From Saprospiraceae bacterium (GTDB lineage: Bacteria > Bacteroidota > Bacteroidia > Chitinophagales > Saprospiraceae): 35,022 nucleotides of DNA. The translations under genes were made by a program, and so were the position numbers. Below the pieces are notes generated by a model that was not told the origin of the DNA, made no database searches, and worked only from the letters and a program-made list of their open reading frames with translations. Location: NCBI GenBank assembly GCA_013214355.1, contig JABSSL010000118.1, positions 1 to 35,022 on the forward strand. The letters run 5' to 3'. Positions 16,594-23,168 of this stretch are shown piece after piece (the stretch's first letter is position 1; each line of letters opens with the position of its first letter).

Positions 16594-18141
16594 TTACTGG
16601 AAGATAATATGTAGTGCAATTAAAGAGGTGAGTAAGCCCACTCCAACCTGCAAGATTCGGGGAGAATCGTAGACAATAAGCTCATTCCAACTTCTCCATT
16701 TACTTTGAAACAGTGCCAATCCAACGGCAAAGAAGGCAATCAAAATCACCCACATGGCTCGTACAAAGTAATTCATGTCTGGGAAGAAATACAGAATTAG
16801 TAGATGCAATGGAATGGTGGAAAGAAAAGCCGCTAGCACCAGCCTTGGATTGGGCGTCACCAAGAAGGCGGCACTACAGATCAATACGACTATTCCACAG
16901 TTGATATAGTATCTCAGCTCATTAAGGGTATGCGTAAAAGCAGCATCAGGGTTTTCAAACTTCAAATAGAGCAGTACTAAACCCATAGTTACACCCGTTA
17001 CCAAGGTGACTAGGATCGTCTTTCGCCCTGCTCCTACCACTTCGGTATCGGTAGCTTCCTTATTGAGGTATTCCCTGTAAATGTCAATAGACCAAAGTGT
17101 GGCTAAGGAGTTGAAAGTGGAATCTACCGTACTCATGAGGGAAGCAAAGAGAGCGCAGAGAATCACGCCTTTGACCCCTACCGGTAGATAAGTTTTTACT
17201 AAATATGGATAAGCCATATCCGGTTCGGCCAGTCCATCCGGTCCCAAGATTCCAAAAAGTGCAATTCCTGGTACCACAATCAAAACAGCCATCACATACT
17301 TCATCACCCCTCCTACCATCAGACCAATTTGAGCCTCTTTTAGGTTTTTAGCAGCCAGAGATCGTTGCATAATCGTCTGATTGGCGCACCAGTAATTGAT
17401 GTTCAATAGGAAGAGACCGAACATATGGATCCACGGAAGAGTAGGATGATCCGCGGGTAGATACAGGTGCATCAAGTCTGGCGTTTTCTCATACAATTGC
17501 CCCCAGCCCCCGAGTTCTCTGATGGAAACAAAGAGTACCACAAAACCACCTATTAACAATATGCTGAACTGTATGATATCCGTTTTGACCACCGCATTCA
17601 GGCCACCAAGGTAAGTGTAGATAGCGGAAAAGATTCCTAAGCCAACAATCATTACCGAGATCCGAGTAATGCGTTCTTCGCTAATAAAGGATAGATAATC
17701 AGCAAAGACAAGATCTGCTGCATAGGCGCCCCAGAAAAGAGCAGCGCCTAAGGTGATGGTCGAAAAGATTGCTAAGTTGGCCAATGAGTAGAAGAGTGCT
17801 ACCCTGCTACCTAATCGCTTCTTAATGTACTGCGTAATTGTGATCACCCTCTCCTTCAGAAATAAAGGCACAAATATAAAGGCAGCCATCAGAATTCCCT
17901 GTACCGCATTGATCTCCAAACTCGCCTGCGCCAAACCAAACAGATAGGCTGACCCCATCATACCTAAAAACTGATAGCCATTGATGTTAGTGGCTATGGA
18001 GGAAAGCGCAATAGAAGGCCAACGGAGGTTTCTGGAACTTAAGAAATACTGCTCAATACTTACATCTTTCTGTACTCTGCCGGAAACGGCAACCCAAAAA
18101 ATGATGATGAAGTAGAGGCAAACAATGGTCAGATCTATCAC
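16594..18141 (-). CDS. Sodium:solute symporter family transporter (SGLT-like)
   Basis: The 515-residue inner-membrane protein has about 13-14 hydrophobic helices in the LeuT-like SSS arrangement. NINGYQFLGMMGSAYLFG at the first inverted repeat, YTYLGGLNAVVKTDIIQF and LCALFASLMSTVDSTFNSLATL are signature stretches of the sodium-binding SSS family. The overall look is that of the sugar branch (SGLT), not proline or pantothenate carriers. It is the last gene of the operon AKR-monooxygenase-symporter, 57 bases after the monooxygenase, so it should import the substrate of that pathway across the inner membrane. It starts at the first ATG before the first helix. Confidence 0.87.
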   Translation of the reverse strand: MIDLTIVCLYFIIIFWVAVSGRVQKDVSIEQYFLSSRNLRWPSIALSSIATNINGYQFLGMMGSAYLFGLAQASLEINAVQGILMAAFIFVPLFLKERVITITQYIKKRLGSRVALFYSLANLAIFSTITLGAALFWGAYAADLVFADYLSFISEERITRISVMIVGLGIFSAIYTYLGGLNAVVKTDIIQFSILLIGGFVVLFVSIRELGGWGQLYEKTPDLMHLYLPADHPTLPWIHMFGLFLLNINYWCANQTIMQRSLAAKNLKEAQIGLMVGGVMKYVMAVLIVVPGIALFGILGPDGLAEPDMAYPYLVKTYLPVGVKGVILCALFASLMSTVDSTFNSLATLWSIDIYREYLNKEATDTEVVGAGRKTILVTLVTGVTMGLVLLYLKFENPDAAFTHTLNELRYYINCGIVVLICSAAFLVTPNPRLVLAAFLSTIPLHLLILYFFPDMNYFVRAMWVILIAFFAVGLALFQSKWRSWNELIVYDSPRILQVGVGLLTSLIALHIIFQ

Positions 18142-18198
18142 GGCTTTGTCTTATGGCAGTTTAGTAGGCTTTATTCAAAACTAATAAAATCCTGTTGC

Positions 18199-19362
18199 TT
18201 ATCGTCTTTCTCCCGCCGCCAAGGGTGTCGCGGGCTCTTGGGCTGGTCGCCGACCTTGGGCTTCTGGCATAGAGAAGGTTTGAATATTTGGCAATACGTA
18301 TTTGGCAAAAAGCTTACACTCCTCAGCGTGAGGGTAGCCAGAGAAGATAAAGGCACGCATTCCCATTTTCATGTAGCGGTTGATTTTTTCGAGAATTTGA
18401 TCCGGGGTGCCGACTAAAGCCGCCCCACAGCCCGATCTTGCCCGGCCGATACCGGTCCAGAGGTTGGGCTCCGCGAAGCCTTCTTCGTCTGCCATTTCAC
18501 GGGTTTGCGTTTGTCGGCTTACGCCATAGGATTTGGCATCTAGCGCCCGTTCTCGGATTTCTTTCCCTTTCTCATCTTCGACATATTTCATCAGCGATTT
18601 GGCAGCTTCTCGTGCTTCGGATTCCGTTTCCCGTACAATGACATGTACCCGCAAACCGAAATCAACTTTTCGCCCGTAGCCTGCCGCTTTCCGACTCATG
18701 TTCTCCATCAACCCTTGGAGCTTTTCCTCTGTTTCAGGCCACATCAAGTACACATCACAGTGCTCAGCGCAAAGGTCAACCGCTGGATCAGAATAACCAC
18801 CGAAATAGAGCAAAGGTCCTCCATTCTGCTGGTAGGGTTTCATGGGATCCGGAGAATCCAACTGGAGGTTGTAAAATTCTCCTTTAAAGTCGATGTGATC
18901 TTGGGTCCACCCTTGCTTGAGAATCTCTATAACTTCTCGGGATCGCTGATAACGCGCCTCAGAACTCAAATTTGTTCCGGGTAAATTTGAAGAGATGATG
19001 TTAATTGTGAGGCGTCCTTTCAGGATATGATCTAAAGTTGAAATAGCTCTTCCAAGCATTGGTGGGTGAACCTCTCCACAGCGAATAGCTGTTAATATGT
19101 TGATGTTAGACGTTAAGGGGGCTACGGCTGAAGCAAAAGTTAAGGTATCCTGACCTACTTGATAGGAGGAAGGACAGAGTATATTTCTAAAACCTAATCG
19201 ATCCGCTGTTAGTAGTACGTTGGAAGTATTACTCCAATCACTTTTGAATCGAATATCGTGCCTACCCAAAAAGCGGTCATCTCCATTGCAGAGTGGAGCA
19301 AACCAGGCTACTTCAGCTCCTTTAAGGTGTGGTGATCTTATCTCTATTTTTGTGTTTTCCAT
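18199..19362 (-). CDS. SsuD-like FMNH2-dependent sulfonate monooxygenase; candidate sulfoquinovose monooxygenase
   Basis: This LLM (bacterial luciferase-like) enzyme of 387 residues is close to alkanesulfonate monooxygenase SsuD along its length. By motif, the sulfonate/flavin residues of SsuD are kept: Arg238 and His240 in [11 protein letters not shown], Arg309 in [12 protein letters not shown], Tyr343 in SGYPHAEE. The reactive SsuD Cys54 is not kept (region [10 protein letters not shown]). Such enzymes use FMNH2 and O2 to release sulfite from a C-sulfonate and leave an aldehyde. No flavin reductase gene adjoins, so FMNH2 must come from elsewhere. The C-terminal tail is Pro/Ala/Arg-rich. The AKR gene lies 40 bases upstream and the sugar symporter 57 bases downstream: this context points to a sugar sulfonate such as sulfoquinovose (inference). 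Confidence 0.83.
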
Positions 19363-19402
19363 GATCCGGTTGTATTAATCATCCATCTGGGTTTCAACTC
19401 CA

Positions 19403-20290
19403 CTAAGGTACCTCCTGTCCTACTGAGGCTTCCCAGAGCTTATACCATTCCTGATGTGAGAGAGCCATGTACTGGGCTTGAGCTGCTACAGTTATACGTT
19501 CTGGCTTAGAGCTGCCCAGTACTGGAATGATCCCTGCTGGATGTTTGTAAAGCCAGGCCAAAAGGATCTGATCTAGCGTGGCATCGTATTTTTCCATTAA
19601 TGGTTGTGCAGCTTTTCGAATCCGGATAGATTGTTCGTCCTCCCGGTCGGTAAAAATACGGCCTCCTCCAAAGGGGGACCAGGCAGTAGGACTTATTTTG
19701 CTCCTTTGACATTGCGTAAGTGTGCCATCCTGGAAAGCATCCAAGTGCAACAAGGAAATTTCTAGTTGATTCGTAATTAGCGGGATCAAGTCGTTGAGTA
19801 AGTCAAATTGGTGAGTGGTAAAATTTGAAACACCAAATGAGCGCACTTTACCGGCTTGGTGAAGCTGCTCATATCCCTCCGCAATATCATGTGGATTCAT
19901 CAATAAATCAGGTCGATGTAATAGCAACACATCAATCTGATCTACACCCAATGCGCGTAAGGAATTATCAACCGAAAGCAAGAGGTGCTCTTTACTTGAA
20001 TTATAGGATTTGATCTGATGGGAGGGACGATTCTCCGTGATCATCTTAATCCCGTACTTGGTTGTGATCTGGATCTTAGACTTTAGATCTGGTCTGCGCT
20101 TAATGACCCGGCCAAAATTCTCCTCTTCGGTATAATGCCCATAAATATCGGCATGATCAAAATCCCGCAAGCCTAAATCGAGACAGTGGTCTATCAGTTG
20201 CTCCACCTCCGACGTTTCCAGTTTAGCGCCCCAAACGCCCCATCTCATGGTGCCTATGATTAAGGGGGAAAAAGTGATCTGATTATCCAT
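19403..20290 (-). CDS. Aldo/keto reductase (YdhF-like), candidate 6-oxo-glucose reductase
   Basis: The 295-residue NADPH-dependent reductase has the AKR tetrad visible as Asp45 and Tyr50 (FDHADIYGHY), Lys78 (TTKYGI) and His125 (LLLHRPD). The text follows E. coli YdhF closely to the C-terminus (QEWYKLWEASVGQEVP). Its phosphate-loop region is PVLGSSKPERI, typical for NADP(H). It is first in the operon with the sulfonate monooxygenase. In the sulfo-SMO pathway the reductase SmoB turns the 6-oxo-glucose left by the monooxygenase into glucose; this role is proposed from context, not from residues. A LacI operator and -7 box lie directly upstream. Confidence 0.85.
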   Translation of the reverse strand: MDNQITFSPLIIGTMRWGVWGAKLETSEVEQLIDHCLDLGLRDFDHADIYGHYTEEENFGRVIKRRPDLKSKIQITTKYGIKMITENRPSHQIKSYNSSKEHLLLSVDNSLRALGVDQIDVLLLHRPDLLMNPHDIAEGYEQLHQAGKVRSFGVSNFTTHQFDLLNDLIPLITNQLEISLLHLDAFQDGTLTQCQRSKISPTAWSPFGGGRIFTDREDEQSIRIRKAAQPLMEKYDATLDQILLAWLYKHPAGIIPVLGSSKPERITVAAQAQYMALSHQEWYKLWEASVGQEVP

Positions 20291-20354
20291 ATACAGTTTG
20301 ATTTGGCCTCGTCAACAGCCAATTTGTTTAAATCCATACTTGCTCTACTGCAAG

Positions 20355-20362
20355 CAAATATA
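20355..20362 (-). promoter_or_regulatory. Bacteroidota -7 box of the AKR-monooxygenase-symporter operon
   Basis: On the minus strand the bases read TATATTTG, a perfect match to TAnnTTTG. Transcription would start near 20348, about 57 bases before the AKR start codon. The -33 region falls on the operator at 20379-20392, so a bound repressor would block RNA polymerase. Confidence 0.6.
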
Positions 20363-20378
20363 GTAAAAAGAAGAAAAT

Positions 20379-20392
20379 TGTAAACGTTTACA
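20379..20392. promoter_or_regulatory. LacI-family operator TGTAAACGTTTACA
   Basis: A perfect 14-base palindrome with the central CG typical of LacI/GalR operators. It lies between the LacI gene and the AKR gene, 16 bases upstream of the TATATTTG box. A related half site (CTTAAACGACTATA, 9 of 14 matches) occurs at 21507-21520 before the GH13 gene. Confidence 0.75.
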
Positions 20393-20436
20393 TTATCTGC
20401 TGACTTCCACGCCTTTACTGCAGCCGCTGCCAGGTA

Positions 20437-21459
20437 TTATTGAGCCTGTTTAATCTTATTGGAAGACTGTCTCACCATCAACTTGATTGGCAGAACTCGC
20501 TGGACACTTGTTGCTGTTGAAGATGCTGATGCCAATTCATCAAGTAGAGAAGTCGCAGCCACTTTACCAACCTCCTCGCTACTCTGACTTACGGAGGAGA
20601 GACTCGGATTCAAGTAAGAGCAAAAAACATTATTTCCGAAGCCGACCACAGCTACTTCTGTTGGTACCGAAATATTGAGTTCCGACAGTATATTCAAAGC
20701 CACCAAAGCCGCAATGTCACCATTGGCGAAGATGGCATCTGGCCGATTACCAGATGAGAGCATCTCTTTCAGCTGCTGAATATCTCTTGGATCATCATCA
20801 TCAAAGGGAATGGAACGCTCAGTGTCCATAGCAAAGCCATGTTCAATAAGAGCAGCTTCAAACCCCCTCCTCCTTTCGGAAAATATACTTACACTATCCT
20901 TCCCCGCTAGATGGATGATTCGCTTACAACCTTGTTCGATCAAATGCGTAGTAGCACGATGCGCGCCGGTATAATTATCAATCACGATCGTATTGAAATT
21001 CCCAAGTTCAATCTTCCGATCGAAAAGCACGACGGGAATCTCTGCTGCTGTCAAATTTTGTAAATGGTCAATTTGCGTTGTTTCTTTAGAAAGAGATATA
21101 ATCACCCCGTCCACACTCAGTTGTCTCAGGTTCTCCAAAATGGCCTTTTCTTTTTCTAGGGACTCGTGAGACTGACAAATGATAATGTTATATCCGGCCT
21201 TACTCAGGATTTCCTCTATACTCTTGATCGCGACAACAAAAACATCACGACTGATGACCGGAACTACTACACCGATCGTATTGCTTTTGCCACTCCTTAG
21301 GGCAGCTGCCATTTTATTTGGGCGATAGTTTAATGATTTGGCTGCCTCGAGCACGATCTCCCGAGTTTTCTCCGTCACTAACTCACTCCCGTTAAATACC
21401 CTAGAGATCGTGGCCAAAGAAAGTCCGGTCACCCTAGCTAAGTCCTTCATATTTGCCAT
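20437..21459 (-). CDS. LacI family transcriptional repressor of the sugar locus
   Basis: The start at 21459 (MANMKDLARVTGLS) places the N-terminal helix-turn-helix in the usual position; an earlier ATG at 21483 would add eight residues. HTH and hinge are MKDLARVTGLSLATISRVFNGS and NYRPNKMAAALRSGKS. The rest is a periplasmic-binding-protein-like sugar domain (TIGVVVPVISRDVFVVAIKSIEEIL, DGVIISLS, DAIFANGDIAAL, VVGFGNN). It should bind a sugar or sugar derivative and release DNA. Its operator sits 45 bases beyond its own stop, in front of the AKR operon, and a half site lies before the divergent GH13 gene, so it probably controls both units. Confidence 0.88.
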   Translation of the reverse strand: MANMKDLARVTGLSLATISRVFNGSELVTEKTREIVLEAAKSLNYRPNKMAAALRSGKSNTIGVVVPVISRDVFVVAIKSIEEILSKAGYNIIICQSHESLEKEKAILENLRQLSVDGVIISLSKETTQIDHLQNLTAAEIPVVLFDRKIELGNFNTIVIDNYTGAHRATTHLIEQGCKRIIHLAGKDSVSIFSERRRGFEAALIEHGFAMDTERSIPFDDDDPRDIQQLKEMLSSGNRPDAIFANGDIAALVALNILSELNISVPTEVAVVGFGNNVFCSYLNPSLSSVSQSSEEVGKVAATSLLDELASASSTATSVQRVLPIKLMVRQSSNKIKQAQ

Positions 21460-21468
21460 GACATCAAT

Positions 21469-21476
21469 TATATTTG
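21469..21476 (+). promoter_or_regulatory. Bacteroidota -7 box for the GH13 gene
   Basis: TATATTTG matches TAnnTTTG exactly and predicts a start of transcription near 21483, about 42 bases before the GH13 ATG. No convincing -33 TTTG was found at the usual distance, so this is moderate support. A half LacI operator at 21507-21520 would lie in the transcribed leader. Confidence 0.45.
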
Positions 21477-21506
21477 CATCCAACGGATAAAAGTAAGACT
21501 TAGAAA

Positions 21507-21520
21507 CTTAAACGACTATA
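21507..21520 (+). promoter_or_regulatory. Partial LacI operator upstream of GH13 gene
   Basis: CTTAAACGACTATA keeps the left half TAAACG of the perfect site at 20379-20392 and matches it at 9 of 14 bases. It lies 4 bases before the GH13 start codon. It could give weaker repression, or be chance. Confidence 0.3.
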
Positions 21521-21524
21521 CAAA

Positions 21525-23168
21525 ATGACAAAGACCTGGTGGAAGGAAAGTGTCATCTACCAGATCTATCCGAGAAGTTTTCAGGATAGTAACGGGGATG
21601 GCGTTGGCGACTTGCAGGGTATCATTCGCCGGCTAGATTACCTTAAATTGTTAGGTGTTGATATTCTATGGTTAAGCCCCATATTTAAATCTCCGAATGA
21701 CGACAACGGCTACGATGTTAGTGATTATCGTAGTATCATGGACGAATTTGGGACCATGGAAGATTTTGATGACTTACTTGCTGGGGTGCATGAAAGAGGT
21801 ATGAAGTTAATCTTGGACCTAGTTCCGAATCACAGTTCGGATGAACATTTCTGGTTCCAAGAGGCGAGGAAATCCAAAGACAATCCTTATCGCAACTACT
21901 ATCATTGGGCAGATGAGCCGAGAACGAATTGGCAATCTTTCTTCAGCGGCTCTACCTGGGAATATGATGAGCAAGCAGAAGCGTATTATTTGCACCTCTT
22001 TTCAAAAAAGCAACCTGATTTGAACTGGGAGAACCCGAAATTGAGGCAAGAGATTCATGATATCATGCGCTTTTGGTTTGATAAGGGTATAGATGGATTT
22101 CGAATTGATGTGATCCCTTTTATTTCCAAACGCCTAGATTGGCCAGACGGTGATCCAAATAATTTTGAGCAAACCATTTTGGAGATCTACTCCAATGGCC
22201 CCAGGTTACATGAGTATCTAAACGAAATGTACGAAGAAGTATGTTCGAAGTATGATGTCATGACGGTAGGGGAAGGCATTGGCGTCAAGCCGCACAACAG
22301 TCTAGAATATGTAGATGAAAATCGTAGAGAGCTCAACATGCTCTACCATTTTGATCATGTGACCATCAATTACGGCCCAGGTGGAAAGTACGATCCCGTC
22401 GATTGGAAACTCAGCACTTTTAAACAACTATTTCTGGATTGGGATCAAGCTATAGCGGACAAAGGCTGGATCAACATTGTCCTTGACAATCATGATTTTC
22501 CGAGAATGGTTTCCCGCTATGGAAATGACGGGCTCTACCGAAAAGAGTCGGCAAAACTATTAGCTACGATGCTCCTGACCCTTCGAGGCACGCCCTGTAT
22601 CTATCAAGGGAGTGAGATTGGTATGATTAACGTGGCTTTTGACTCTCTGGATGAATACGATGATGTTGAAGTTGTGAATATGGTCCGGGAATGGCGTGAA
22701 GCAGGCAAAGATCCCTCTCCTCTCCTACCGGCAGTCCAGCAGCAAGGTCGTGACAATGCTCGCACACCGATGCAATGGGATGACTCCGTCCATGCTGGTT
22801 TCACTTCGGGAACACCTTGGCTTAAATTGAATCCTAGCTATCAGACCATTAATGTCACGGAAGCGCTAGCAGATCCAACTTCCATCTTTTACTACTACAA
22901 AGACCTCCTGGCTTTCCGTAAGGTCAATCCGACCCTCATCTACGGGGATTTTGAGCTCATCGCTCCTAATTCCGAACAGCTGTTTGCTTATCGAAGATGG
23001 GATGCACAGAACGAATTTCTGGTTTTTTTGAATTTTTCTTCAGAAACCTTACCCATCGAAGCCTTGGCAGATTGGGGTAGTTATCAATTGGTAAAATCAA
23101 ATTATTTGGAGGCCAGTATTCCAATGCGGCCATGGGAATGCAGAATATATCAACGTCAAGTTCAGTAG
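21525..23168 (+). CDS. GH13 alpha-glucosidase (oligo-1,6-glucosidase type)
   Basis: The 547-residue protein is a full-length GH13 enzyme. Conserved regions appear in order: DLVPNHSS (I), GFRIDVI with nucleophile Asp195 (II), VGEGIG with acid/base Glu250 (III), DNHDFPR with Asp324 (IV), and QPDLNWENP. The Val after the nucleophile is the residue linked to alpha-1,6 preference in oligo-1,6-glucosidases. There is no signal peptide, so it acts in the cytoplasm on short imported alpha-glucosides. It diverges from the LacI gene by about 65 bases. It could release glucose or a glucose derivative from alpha-glycosides. Known sulfoquinovosidases are GH31 or GH188, so a role on sulfoquinovosides would be new and is not assumed. 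Confidence 0.9.
   Translation: MTKTWWKESVIYQIYPRSFQDSNGDGVGDLQGIIRRLDYLKLLGVDILWLSPIFKSPNDDNGYDVSDYRSIMDEFGTMEDFDDLLAGVHERGMKLILDLVPNHSSDEHFWFQEARKSKDNPYRNYYHWADEPRTNWQSFFSGSTWEYDEQAEAYYLHLFSKKQPDLNWENPKLRQEIHDIMRFWFDKGIDGFRIDVIPFISKRLDWPDGDPNNFEQTILEIYSNGPRLHEYLNEMYEEVCSKYDVMTVGEGIGVKPHNSLEYVDENRRELNMLYHFDHVTINYGPGGKYDPVDWKLSTFKQLFLDWDQAIADKGWINIVLDNHDFPRMVSRYGNDGLYRKESAKLLATMLLTLRGTPCIYQGSEIGMINVAFDSLDEYDDVEVVNMVREWREAGKDPSPLLPAVQQQGRDNARTPMQWDDSVHAGFTSGTPWLKLNPSYQTINVTEALADPTSIFYYYKDLLAFRKVNPTLIYGDFELIAPNSEQLFAYRRWDAQNEFLVFLNFSSETLPIEALADWGSYQLVKSNYLEASIPMRPWECRIYQRQVQ

Follow-up and report, generated by a model that had tools for sequence, protein, structure and literature searches.

In a window of 35,022 nucleotides (contig JABSSL010000118.1 of assembly GCA_013214355.1, a Saprospiraceae bacterium with a genome of 11.2 Mb in 224 contigs), the genes at positions 16594-23168 make up a candidate oxidative sulfoquinovose pathway in Bacteroidota that is well supported by sequence comparison and appears new in its importer, its regulator and possibly its glycosidase. 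The locus comprises genes for an aldo/keto reductase (AKR), a luciferase-like monooxygenase (LLM) and a sodium:solute symporter, all read leftward, together with a LacI-family regulator and a glycosidase of family GH13 that diverges from lacI (Table 1). This layout had been put forward in a first-pass annotation made from the letters of the window, and its coordinates and families are borne out by the open reading frames (ORFs) and by Pfam and NCBIfam profiles, which verified all five gene families among ten window ORFs between 14755 and 25932. We consider it probable that this Saprospiraceae-like bacterium harbors a sulfolytic sulfo-SMO system, and the gene set very likely serves to import the plant sulfosugar sulfoquinovose and to remove its sulfonate, leaving glucose. 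Four lines of sequence-level evidence support this assignment: the identities of the genes, the placement of the monooxygenase with SmoC, the conservation of a palindrome before pathway genes, and the linkage of smoC with the symporter gene. The pathway would proceed as follows: (i) the SGLT-type symporter would carry sulfoquinovose, or one of its small glycosides, through the inner membrane together with sodium; (ii) SmoC, with O2 and reduced flavin mononucleotide (FMNH2) supplied by an unlinked flavin reductase, would cut the C-S bond to yield 6-dehydroglucose and sulfite; (iii) the AKR would convert 6-dehydroglucose to glucose, which would enter glycolysis; and (iv) LacI, bound to the palindrome TGTAAACGTTTACA just upstream of the -7 box, would repress the operon until an inducer, either the sulfosugar or a product, released it.

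Table 1. Features of the candidate sulfoquinovose locus, with positions in the window
Feature	Coordinates	Strand	Basis
Sodium:solute symporter (SGLT-like), proposed importer of sulfoquinovose or sulfoquinovose glycosides	16594..18141	-	PF00474 9.9e-46; best PDB 2xq2/3dh4, sodium/glucose cotransporters
Predicted SmoC-type FMNH2-dependent sulfoquinovose monooxygenase (LLM)	18199..19362	-	7oh2 495 bits, 7olf 487, SsuD (1nqk) 198; tree
Aldo/keto reductase of the SmoB/SquF/YdhF clade, proposed 6-dehydroglucose reductase	19403..20290	-	PF00248; 4r9o 230 bits; tree
Bacteroidota-type -7 promoter box TATATTTG	20355..20362	-	16 nt downstream of palindrome; consensus TAnnTTTG
Perfect 14-bp palindrome TGTAAACGTTTACA, proposed LacI operator of the AKR-SmoC-symporter operon	20379..20392	.	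88 bp before AKR start
LacI-family regulator	20437..21483, probable true start 21459	-	PF00356 and PF13377
GH13 oligo-1,6-glucosidase-like alpha-glycosidase, divergent from lacI	21525..23168	+	PF00128 4.6e-163; best PDB 9u7v, 1uok

The monooxygenase and the aldo/keto reductase

The solved structures closest to the window's monooxygenase in a PDB sequence search were 7oh2 and 7olf, followed by 7jv3 (223 bits) and 1nqk. We take 7oh2 and 7olf to be the SmoC structures of Agrobacterium and Rhizobium oryzae, and 1nqk to be SsuD of E. coli; the PDB record titles of these structures read alkanesulfonate monooxygenase or methanesulfonate sulfonatase. Identity to the window protein amounts to 57.1% for 7oh2, 55.6% for 7olf, 60.1% for Ruegeria TM1040, 51.0 and 49.7% for the Novosphingobium enzymes, 45.7% for Rhizobium WSM4643 and 33.0% for SsuD, and the closest named relative in the genome scan, from an uncultured Lewinella metagenome-assembled genome (MAG), reaches 94%. 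For comparison, we used the best 80 of 147 smoC places confirmed in a contig scan of genomes, which with the window give 81 loci (1.15 Mb). A tree was built with FastTree from the window protein, the 80 locus proteins fetched and 15 references. In it, a node with a support of 0.89 unites the window, 76 of the 80 locus proteins and five SmoC-type references from rhizobia and roseobacters, with the SsuD clade (0.997) outside; the remaining four locus proteins branch one step farther out with poor support (0.12). The five references are monophyletic (1.0), and their sister is the protein of L066, a MAG labelled Thiotrichaceae (0.999). The first-pass annotation had proposed the chemistry of SmoC and had named clustering with SsuD or other LLM enzymes as the result that would speak against it; what the tree returns is a grouping with SmoC.

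By its placement and its motifs, the enzyme is of SmoC type and not an SsuD. That it might be an ordinary alkanesulfonate monooxygenase employed in sulfur scavenging is most improbable, for although the best NCBIfam family is the SsuD equivalog TIGR03565, the score of 262.9 bits is about half of the curated cut-off of 518.2, the SsuD clade in the tree excludes the window enzyme, and no ABC-type sulfonate transporter is found among the ten scanned window proteins. Four residues that the first-pass annotation had listed as kept (R238, H240, R309 and Y343) are indeed present in the window, but an alignment shows them to be common to 7oh2, 7olf and SsuD (1nqk), so that they mark sulfonate monooxygenases in general. 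The residues that do separate the two enzymes lie in the stretches CPSSYQ (IPTGRS in SsuD), MWPE and ARSG, with GLVRGGAG in SsuD, and the window has the SmoC version. Among 82 proteins (the window, the 80 loci and one Spirosoma protein included by name), CPSSYQ is kept in 79, MWP[ED] in 81 and ARSG in 79. The C-terminal tail TPL occurs in 59 of 81; a stricter tail motif, P[AS]TPL, was dropped because few proteins carry it.

For the AKR, the PDB search placed YdhF (215 bits) and 7bby (203 bits) after 4r9o, and we take 7bby to be a SmoB structure. When an AKR tree is rooted on paralogues from the bacterium's own genome, one clade (0.99) contains the window AKR, 33 other locus AKRs, YdhF, three SmoB, two SquF-type proteins and the AKR of L060. 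The AKR gene adjoins smoC in the window, and its product groups with YdhF (0.99) inside the SmoB/SquF clade. Both SmoB and SquF are described as 6-dehydroglucose reductases in passages of PMC13372026, PMC12890257 and PMC9594981, and since the two flank the YdhF-containing node on either side, the same function is plausible for the window AKR. Strict orthology to SmoB is less certain, the AKR being nearer to YdhF than to SmoB in the tree. A passage of PMC13372026 counts a genome as sulfo-SMO positive when the smoB and smoC genes occur together; in the window both kinds of gene are adjacent, with the assignment of the reductase as SmoB still tentative.

Gene order, distribution and regulation

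Only 40 bp separate the AKR and LLM genes and 57 bp the LLM and symporter genes, spacings compatible with a single leftward operon. In a sample of 398 genomes of the window's family, smoC (E <= 1e-60) was found in 108, including 67 of the 275 good genomes. The titles of the best 80 places are mostly Saprospiraceae, Lewinella, Flavobacteriaceae and other Bacteroidota, with two Chloroflexi, two Anaerolineales, one Thiotrichaceae and a few entries named only "bacterium". Clustering of the neighbours in the 81 loci, many of whose stretches are short and whose counts are therefore lower bounds, gave the symporter in 49, the AKR in 33, and GH13 and LacI in four each. Of the 80 loci, 44 have flanks of 2.5 kb or more on either side; among these, the symporter falls inside that distance in 33 loci, the AKR in 14 and the two together in 12. 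A constant core of SmoC and symporter thus emerges; the AKR is frequently missing or encoded elsewhere, and the window has all three. L039 (Phaeodactylibacter xiamenensis KD52) has SmoC and the symporter with no linked AKR, and L056 (Flavobacterium sp. ASW18X) has LacI, GH13, an FMN reductase, the AKR, SmoC and the symporter. The frequent absence of the AKR weighs against every Bacteroidota SmoC being part of a complete pathway.

This pattern bears on the reading in which the window enzyme, SmoC-like as it is, desulfonates another sulfonate (a different 6-deoxy-6-sulfohexose or a small alkanesulfonate) and belongs to no sulfoquinovose pathway. The family may have spread in this manner, given that 30 of the 44 full-flank Bacteroidota-type loci have no AKR nearby and that diverged SmoC-like enzymes of Spirosoma stand with SusCD and amino acid permeases, with no AKR in the annotated stretch, one such locus also having an amidohydrolase and a sulfite dehydrogenase. 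In the relatives from Emticicia and Spirosoma, the SmoC pocket motifs are partly altered and the annotated surrounding stretches lack an AKR, which suggests other substrates there. The window enzyme, in contrast, keeps these motifs. It is linked to an AKR that falls in the 6-dehydroglucose reductase clade, and a symporter of SGLT type and a LacI of sugar type go with it; we regard another sulfonate as distinctly unlikely to be its substrate.

Several neighbourhoods are recorded here as observations in their own right. On a plasmid of Spirosoma oryzicola (L101:2441-13414), the diverged SmoC-like enzyme, whose substrate is probably another sulfonate, is accompanied by SusC/SusD, an amidohydrolase, an amino acid permease, cytochrome c and a sulfite dehydrogenase, with no AKR in the stretch, and on the 34-kb plasmid pEMTOL05 of Emticicia oligotrophica (L100:6489-12417), an LLM enzyme, a sodium symporter and a GH95 protein are encoded in a row. 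A GntP-type permease precedes SmoC and the symporter in L079:8600-12670, L080:1948-6021 and L081:2648-6703 (Candidatus Arcticimaribacter, Flavobacteriaceae MAG), with no AKR within the available stretches. A protein of 328-345 amino acids recurs within about 2 kb of smoC in L037, L038, L045, L061, L065 and L078 (e.g., L078:6993-8009); the L078 copy (339 amino acids) gave no PDB match and a weak Pfam alpha/beta-hydrolase match below the cut-off.

The regulator had been predicted to differ from those of known sulfo-SMO systems, and this is supported by a palindrome that is conserved together with LacI and that links the AKR-SmoC-symporter genes with, in relatives, flavin reductase, sulfite dehydrogenase and exporter genes. 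The nominal TTG start of LacI is probably too early, as the starts of its relatives line up with an ATG 24 bases into the ORF. The DNA-binding region (62 residues) shares 65-66% identity with its counterparts in the LacI proteins of three Flavobacteriaceae-type smo loci, and all four proteins have the same recognition-helix stretch, GLSLAT. In the whole genome, TGTAAACGTTTACA is the sole site with at most one mismatch. Across the 81 smoC loci, we found 11 such sites in seven loci, compared with 0.28 on average and at most 2 for 40 control palindromes with permuted half sites (locus relatedness not corrected for), and all 11 adjoin genes for an AKR, SmoC, FMN reductase, SorA-like sulfite dehydrogenase, LacI or an exporter-like protein of Pfam family PF03601. 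They are located (i) in the divergent promoter between the AKR and FMN reductase genes of L056, L057 and L074, (ii) at lacI in L074 and at the PF03601 gene in L057 and L074, (iii) at 19405 in L056, before the SorA-like sulfite dehydrogenase gene (from 19513), and (iv) before smoC in L004 and L019 and before the AKR gene in L014, in addition to the window's own. The box TAnnTTTG, presumably the Bacteroidota-type -7 promoter consensus, follows the palindrome by 16-18 nt in the window, L057, L074, L014 and L004 and is not exact in L056 and L019; before the PF03601 genes the spacing differs, being 11 nt in L057, with palindrome and box overlapping in L074.

The window, L056, L057 and L074 contain both the palindrome and LacI; L004, L014 and L019 have the palindrome and no such LacI within the available stretches. 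With 74 of the 81 loci having no site with at most one mismatch, this putative regulation is limited to part of the group. Six proteobacterial stretches (L103, L104, L105, L114, L115 and L118), searched with up to three mismatches, gave one site with three mismatches, in L105, and in 60 genomes of relatives the exact palindrome was found as the window's own copy and one other, compared with 4 of 60 for the reversed control; the 3-kb stretch around that other copy has no match to the window proteins. The palindrome is therefore not a general mark of smoC loci. Taken together, these comparisons suggest that some members of the group have a sulfo-SMO regulon governed by LacI.

Flavin supply, sulfite disposal and known systems

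The absence of a flavin reductase and an exporter beside the operon, already remarked on in the first reading, was confirmed in the ten ORFs scanned. The Flavobacteriaceae-type loci have under the palindrome what the window operon lacks beside it, namely, a flavin reductase (an FMN reductase is linked in L056, L057 and L074), a sulfite dehydrogenase and a PF03601 exporter. In L010, a SorA-like protein is encoded directly after the symporter, with no palindrome site. The window's genome has nine unlinked FMN_red proteins and one PF03601 protein elsewhere, also unlinked; the putative sulfate exporter of Ruegeria aligns to the PF03601 proteins of L057 and L074 at 25-26%. A linked flavin reductase does not appear to be essential, as sulfo-SMO clusters without one are noted in a passage of PMC9594981. 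Downstream of the smo operon in L057 (12870-17456), genes for a sulfite dehydrogenase, a small protein that weakly matches a heme-binding family, and an FGGY kinase follow; the kinase might act on glycerol or on a sugar released by the pathway.

A number of findings weigh against a complete sulfoquinovose pathway under LacI control: (i) the AKR was detected in only 33 of the 81 loci, and within 2.5 kb in only 14 of the 44 with full flanks, and many Bacteroidota SmoC enzymes may act on another substrate or with an unlinked reductase; (ii) the window AKR forms with 30 of the 33 others and YdhF an inner node (0.99) without SmoB and is nearer to YdhF; (iii) no flavin reductase adjoins the operon among the ten ORFs, and the linked FMN reductases of relatives match at only 23-24% among eight of the nine own FMN_red proteins; (iv) no match to a SorA-like sulfite dehydrogenase was found in the own genome, in a search made without a positive control; (v) no YihQ-type GH31 or GH188 sulfoquinovosidase was found in the window's genome; and (vi) the palindrome is present in only 7 of the 81 loci, 7 of the 11 sites come from the three related loci L056, L057 and L074, and its genome-wide count of 1 is not above the 2 of a reversed control pattern, so that in the genome its position matters and not its number.

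Set beside the sulfo-SMO systems of Agrobacterium, Rhizobium and roseobacters, the window likewise combines a SmoC-type enzyme (56-60% identity) with an AKR, and the expected products are glucose and sulfite. The loci of Ruegeria TM1040 and Rhizobium SL42 encode an LLM, an AKR, a flavin reductase, a Gfo/Idh/MocA protein and a putative sulfate exporter. The differences lie in the importer, which is of TRAP type in Ruegeria and Rhizobium SL42 and presumably of ABC type in Agrobacterium, whereas the window has an SGLT-type symporter; in the regulator, GntR there and LacI here; in the want of a linked flavin reductase, exporter, GH31 or GH188; and in an AKR that is nearer to YdhF. The sulfo-ASMO cluster of Novosphingobium (SquD, SquF) offers a second comparison: in N. 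pentaromativorans, a LacI, an AKR, an LLM and an alpha-glucosidase occur together, with no flavin reductase annotated in the stretch, but its LLM is 50-51% and its LacI 25% identical to those of the window, its alpha-glucosidase (669 amino acids) has no match to the window GH13 at E 1e-8, and the stretch contains a TonB receptor and glycerol genes and no symporter. Sulfo-SMO chemistry with a different importer and regulator, as first suggested, is supported by the placement of SmoC in the tree and by the conserved palindrome.

The GH13 glycosidase

A GH31 (YihQ) or GH188 (SqgA) sulfoquinovosidase is the expected gateway step for sulfoquinovosides, and the window's genome has the GH13 in the locus. 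As stated in a passage of PMC10755693, in which GH188 is described, only GH31 sulfoquinovosidases were known before it. The genome's two GH31 proteins were rejected as not YihQ-type, one being 4xpo-like and the other alpha-glucosidase II-like; yihQ gives only 77 bits for the latter and falls outside the E limit for the former. The record title of 4xpo reads alpha-glucosidase, and we take it to be an alpha-galactosidase. The nearest GH188 match elsewhere in the genome was likewise set aside, with only 28% identity over query residues 31-290. In L060:1620-5068 and L062:1120-4562, from MAGs labelled Anaerolineales, an AKR, a GH188-like SqgA homologue (234 bits to 8qc2 for the L060 copy) and SmoC are encoded in a row; their SmoC is Bacteroidota-like (73%), and the binning may be wrong.

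We consider it unlikely that the GH13 serves the pathway as sulfoquinovosidase in place of GH31 and GH188, although sulfoquinovosidases of known type were not found in the genome and the gene is linked to the operon in varied arrangements. It diverges from lacI in the window, lies downstream of smoC and the symporter gene in L041/L160 (same contig), closes a single run of AKR-SmoC-symporter-GH13 on one strand in L163, and starts at most 10 bp from the stop of the FMN reductase gene, under the palindrome, in L056 and L074. Its nearest relatives (at least 69% identity, own included) occur in nine family genomes, eight of which have smoC, compared with 108 of 398 overall (kinship uncorrected). 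At the active site, the proposal finds no support, as the residues match those of ordinary alpha-glucosidases. The protein scores 656-668 bits to 1uok and 9u7v (656 to the oligo-1,6-glucosidase 1uok), and nine residues of the -1 subsite (D60, Y63, H103, R197, D199, E255, H328, D329 and R415, 1uok numbering), which we take to include the catalytic triad and the His near O6, are unchanged. The differences from these oligo-1,6-glucosidases are on the aglycone side, where M256 is changed to G, P257 to I and Q330 to F; F330 is found in 23 of 23 Bacteroidota GH13s compared, among which positions 256 and 257 vary. In the inspected columns, the linked GH13s carry nothing that is lacking in 16 unlinked ones. 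Moreover, 97 of the 162 family genomes with this GH13 have no smoC, and four of the nine nearest GH13s have none within the fetched surrounding stretches.

The same active site and the same abundance of GH13 without smoC speak for an ordinary alpha-glucosidase that merely adjoins the operon of a bacterium using free sulfoquinovose only, as does the absence of a palindrome copy between lacI and the GH13 gene in the window; its chance we put a little short of even. It is opposed by the recurrence of the linkage in Saprospiraceae- and Flavobacteriaceae-type loci. In the 398 genomes, GH13 is present in 162 and smoC in 108, both occurring in 65 where 44 are expected (Fisher p 2e-6, kinship uncorrected), and in 3 of these 65 the two are linked on one contig, compared with about 0.2 expected (a rough figure that assumes uniform placement in 6-Mb genomes). 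In addition, the L057 stretch has LacI and smo genes with no GH13, and the palindrome precedes the smo operon, by which LacI seems to be part of the latter. In the window's genus, G196 appears with GH13 and smoC at the ends of two contigs, and G121 has a GH13 beside a cut lacI, with no smoC found, so that linkage in these genomes cannot be judged. On balance, sequence connects the GH13 to the pathway in some of these bacteria, yet its sugar pocket has the look of one built for glucose. A rather unlikely reading takes the Bacteroidota GH13s of this clade for gateway glycosidases that form a third type alongside GH31 and GH188; their substrate would be sulfoquinovosyl glycerol or a glucoside that places sulfoquinovose in the +1 site, and the LacI regulon to which they belong would extend to import, desulfonation, flavin supply, sulfite oxidation and export.

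To conclude, sulfoquinovose is made and degraded at about ten billion tons per year (a passage of PMC10755693), and the SmoC route is described as mainly alpha- and betaproteobacterial in passages of PMC9594981 and PMC12890257, with sulfo-SMO clusters also in Actinomycetota and Spirochaetota according to part of a 2026 survey (PMC13372026). A full-text search of the openly licensed literature found no description of the Bacteroidota system, and an earlier mention of such clusters is possible. Occurring in about one in four of the family's sampled genomes, SmoC-type enzymes would add a large group of possible sulfoquinovose degraders, and the palindrome, where present, offers a way to locate other parts of the pathway in a genome.

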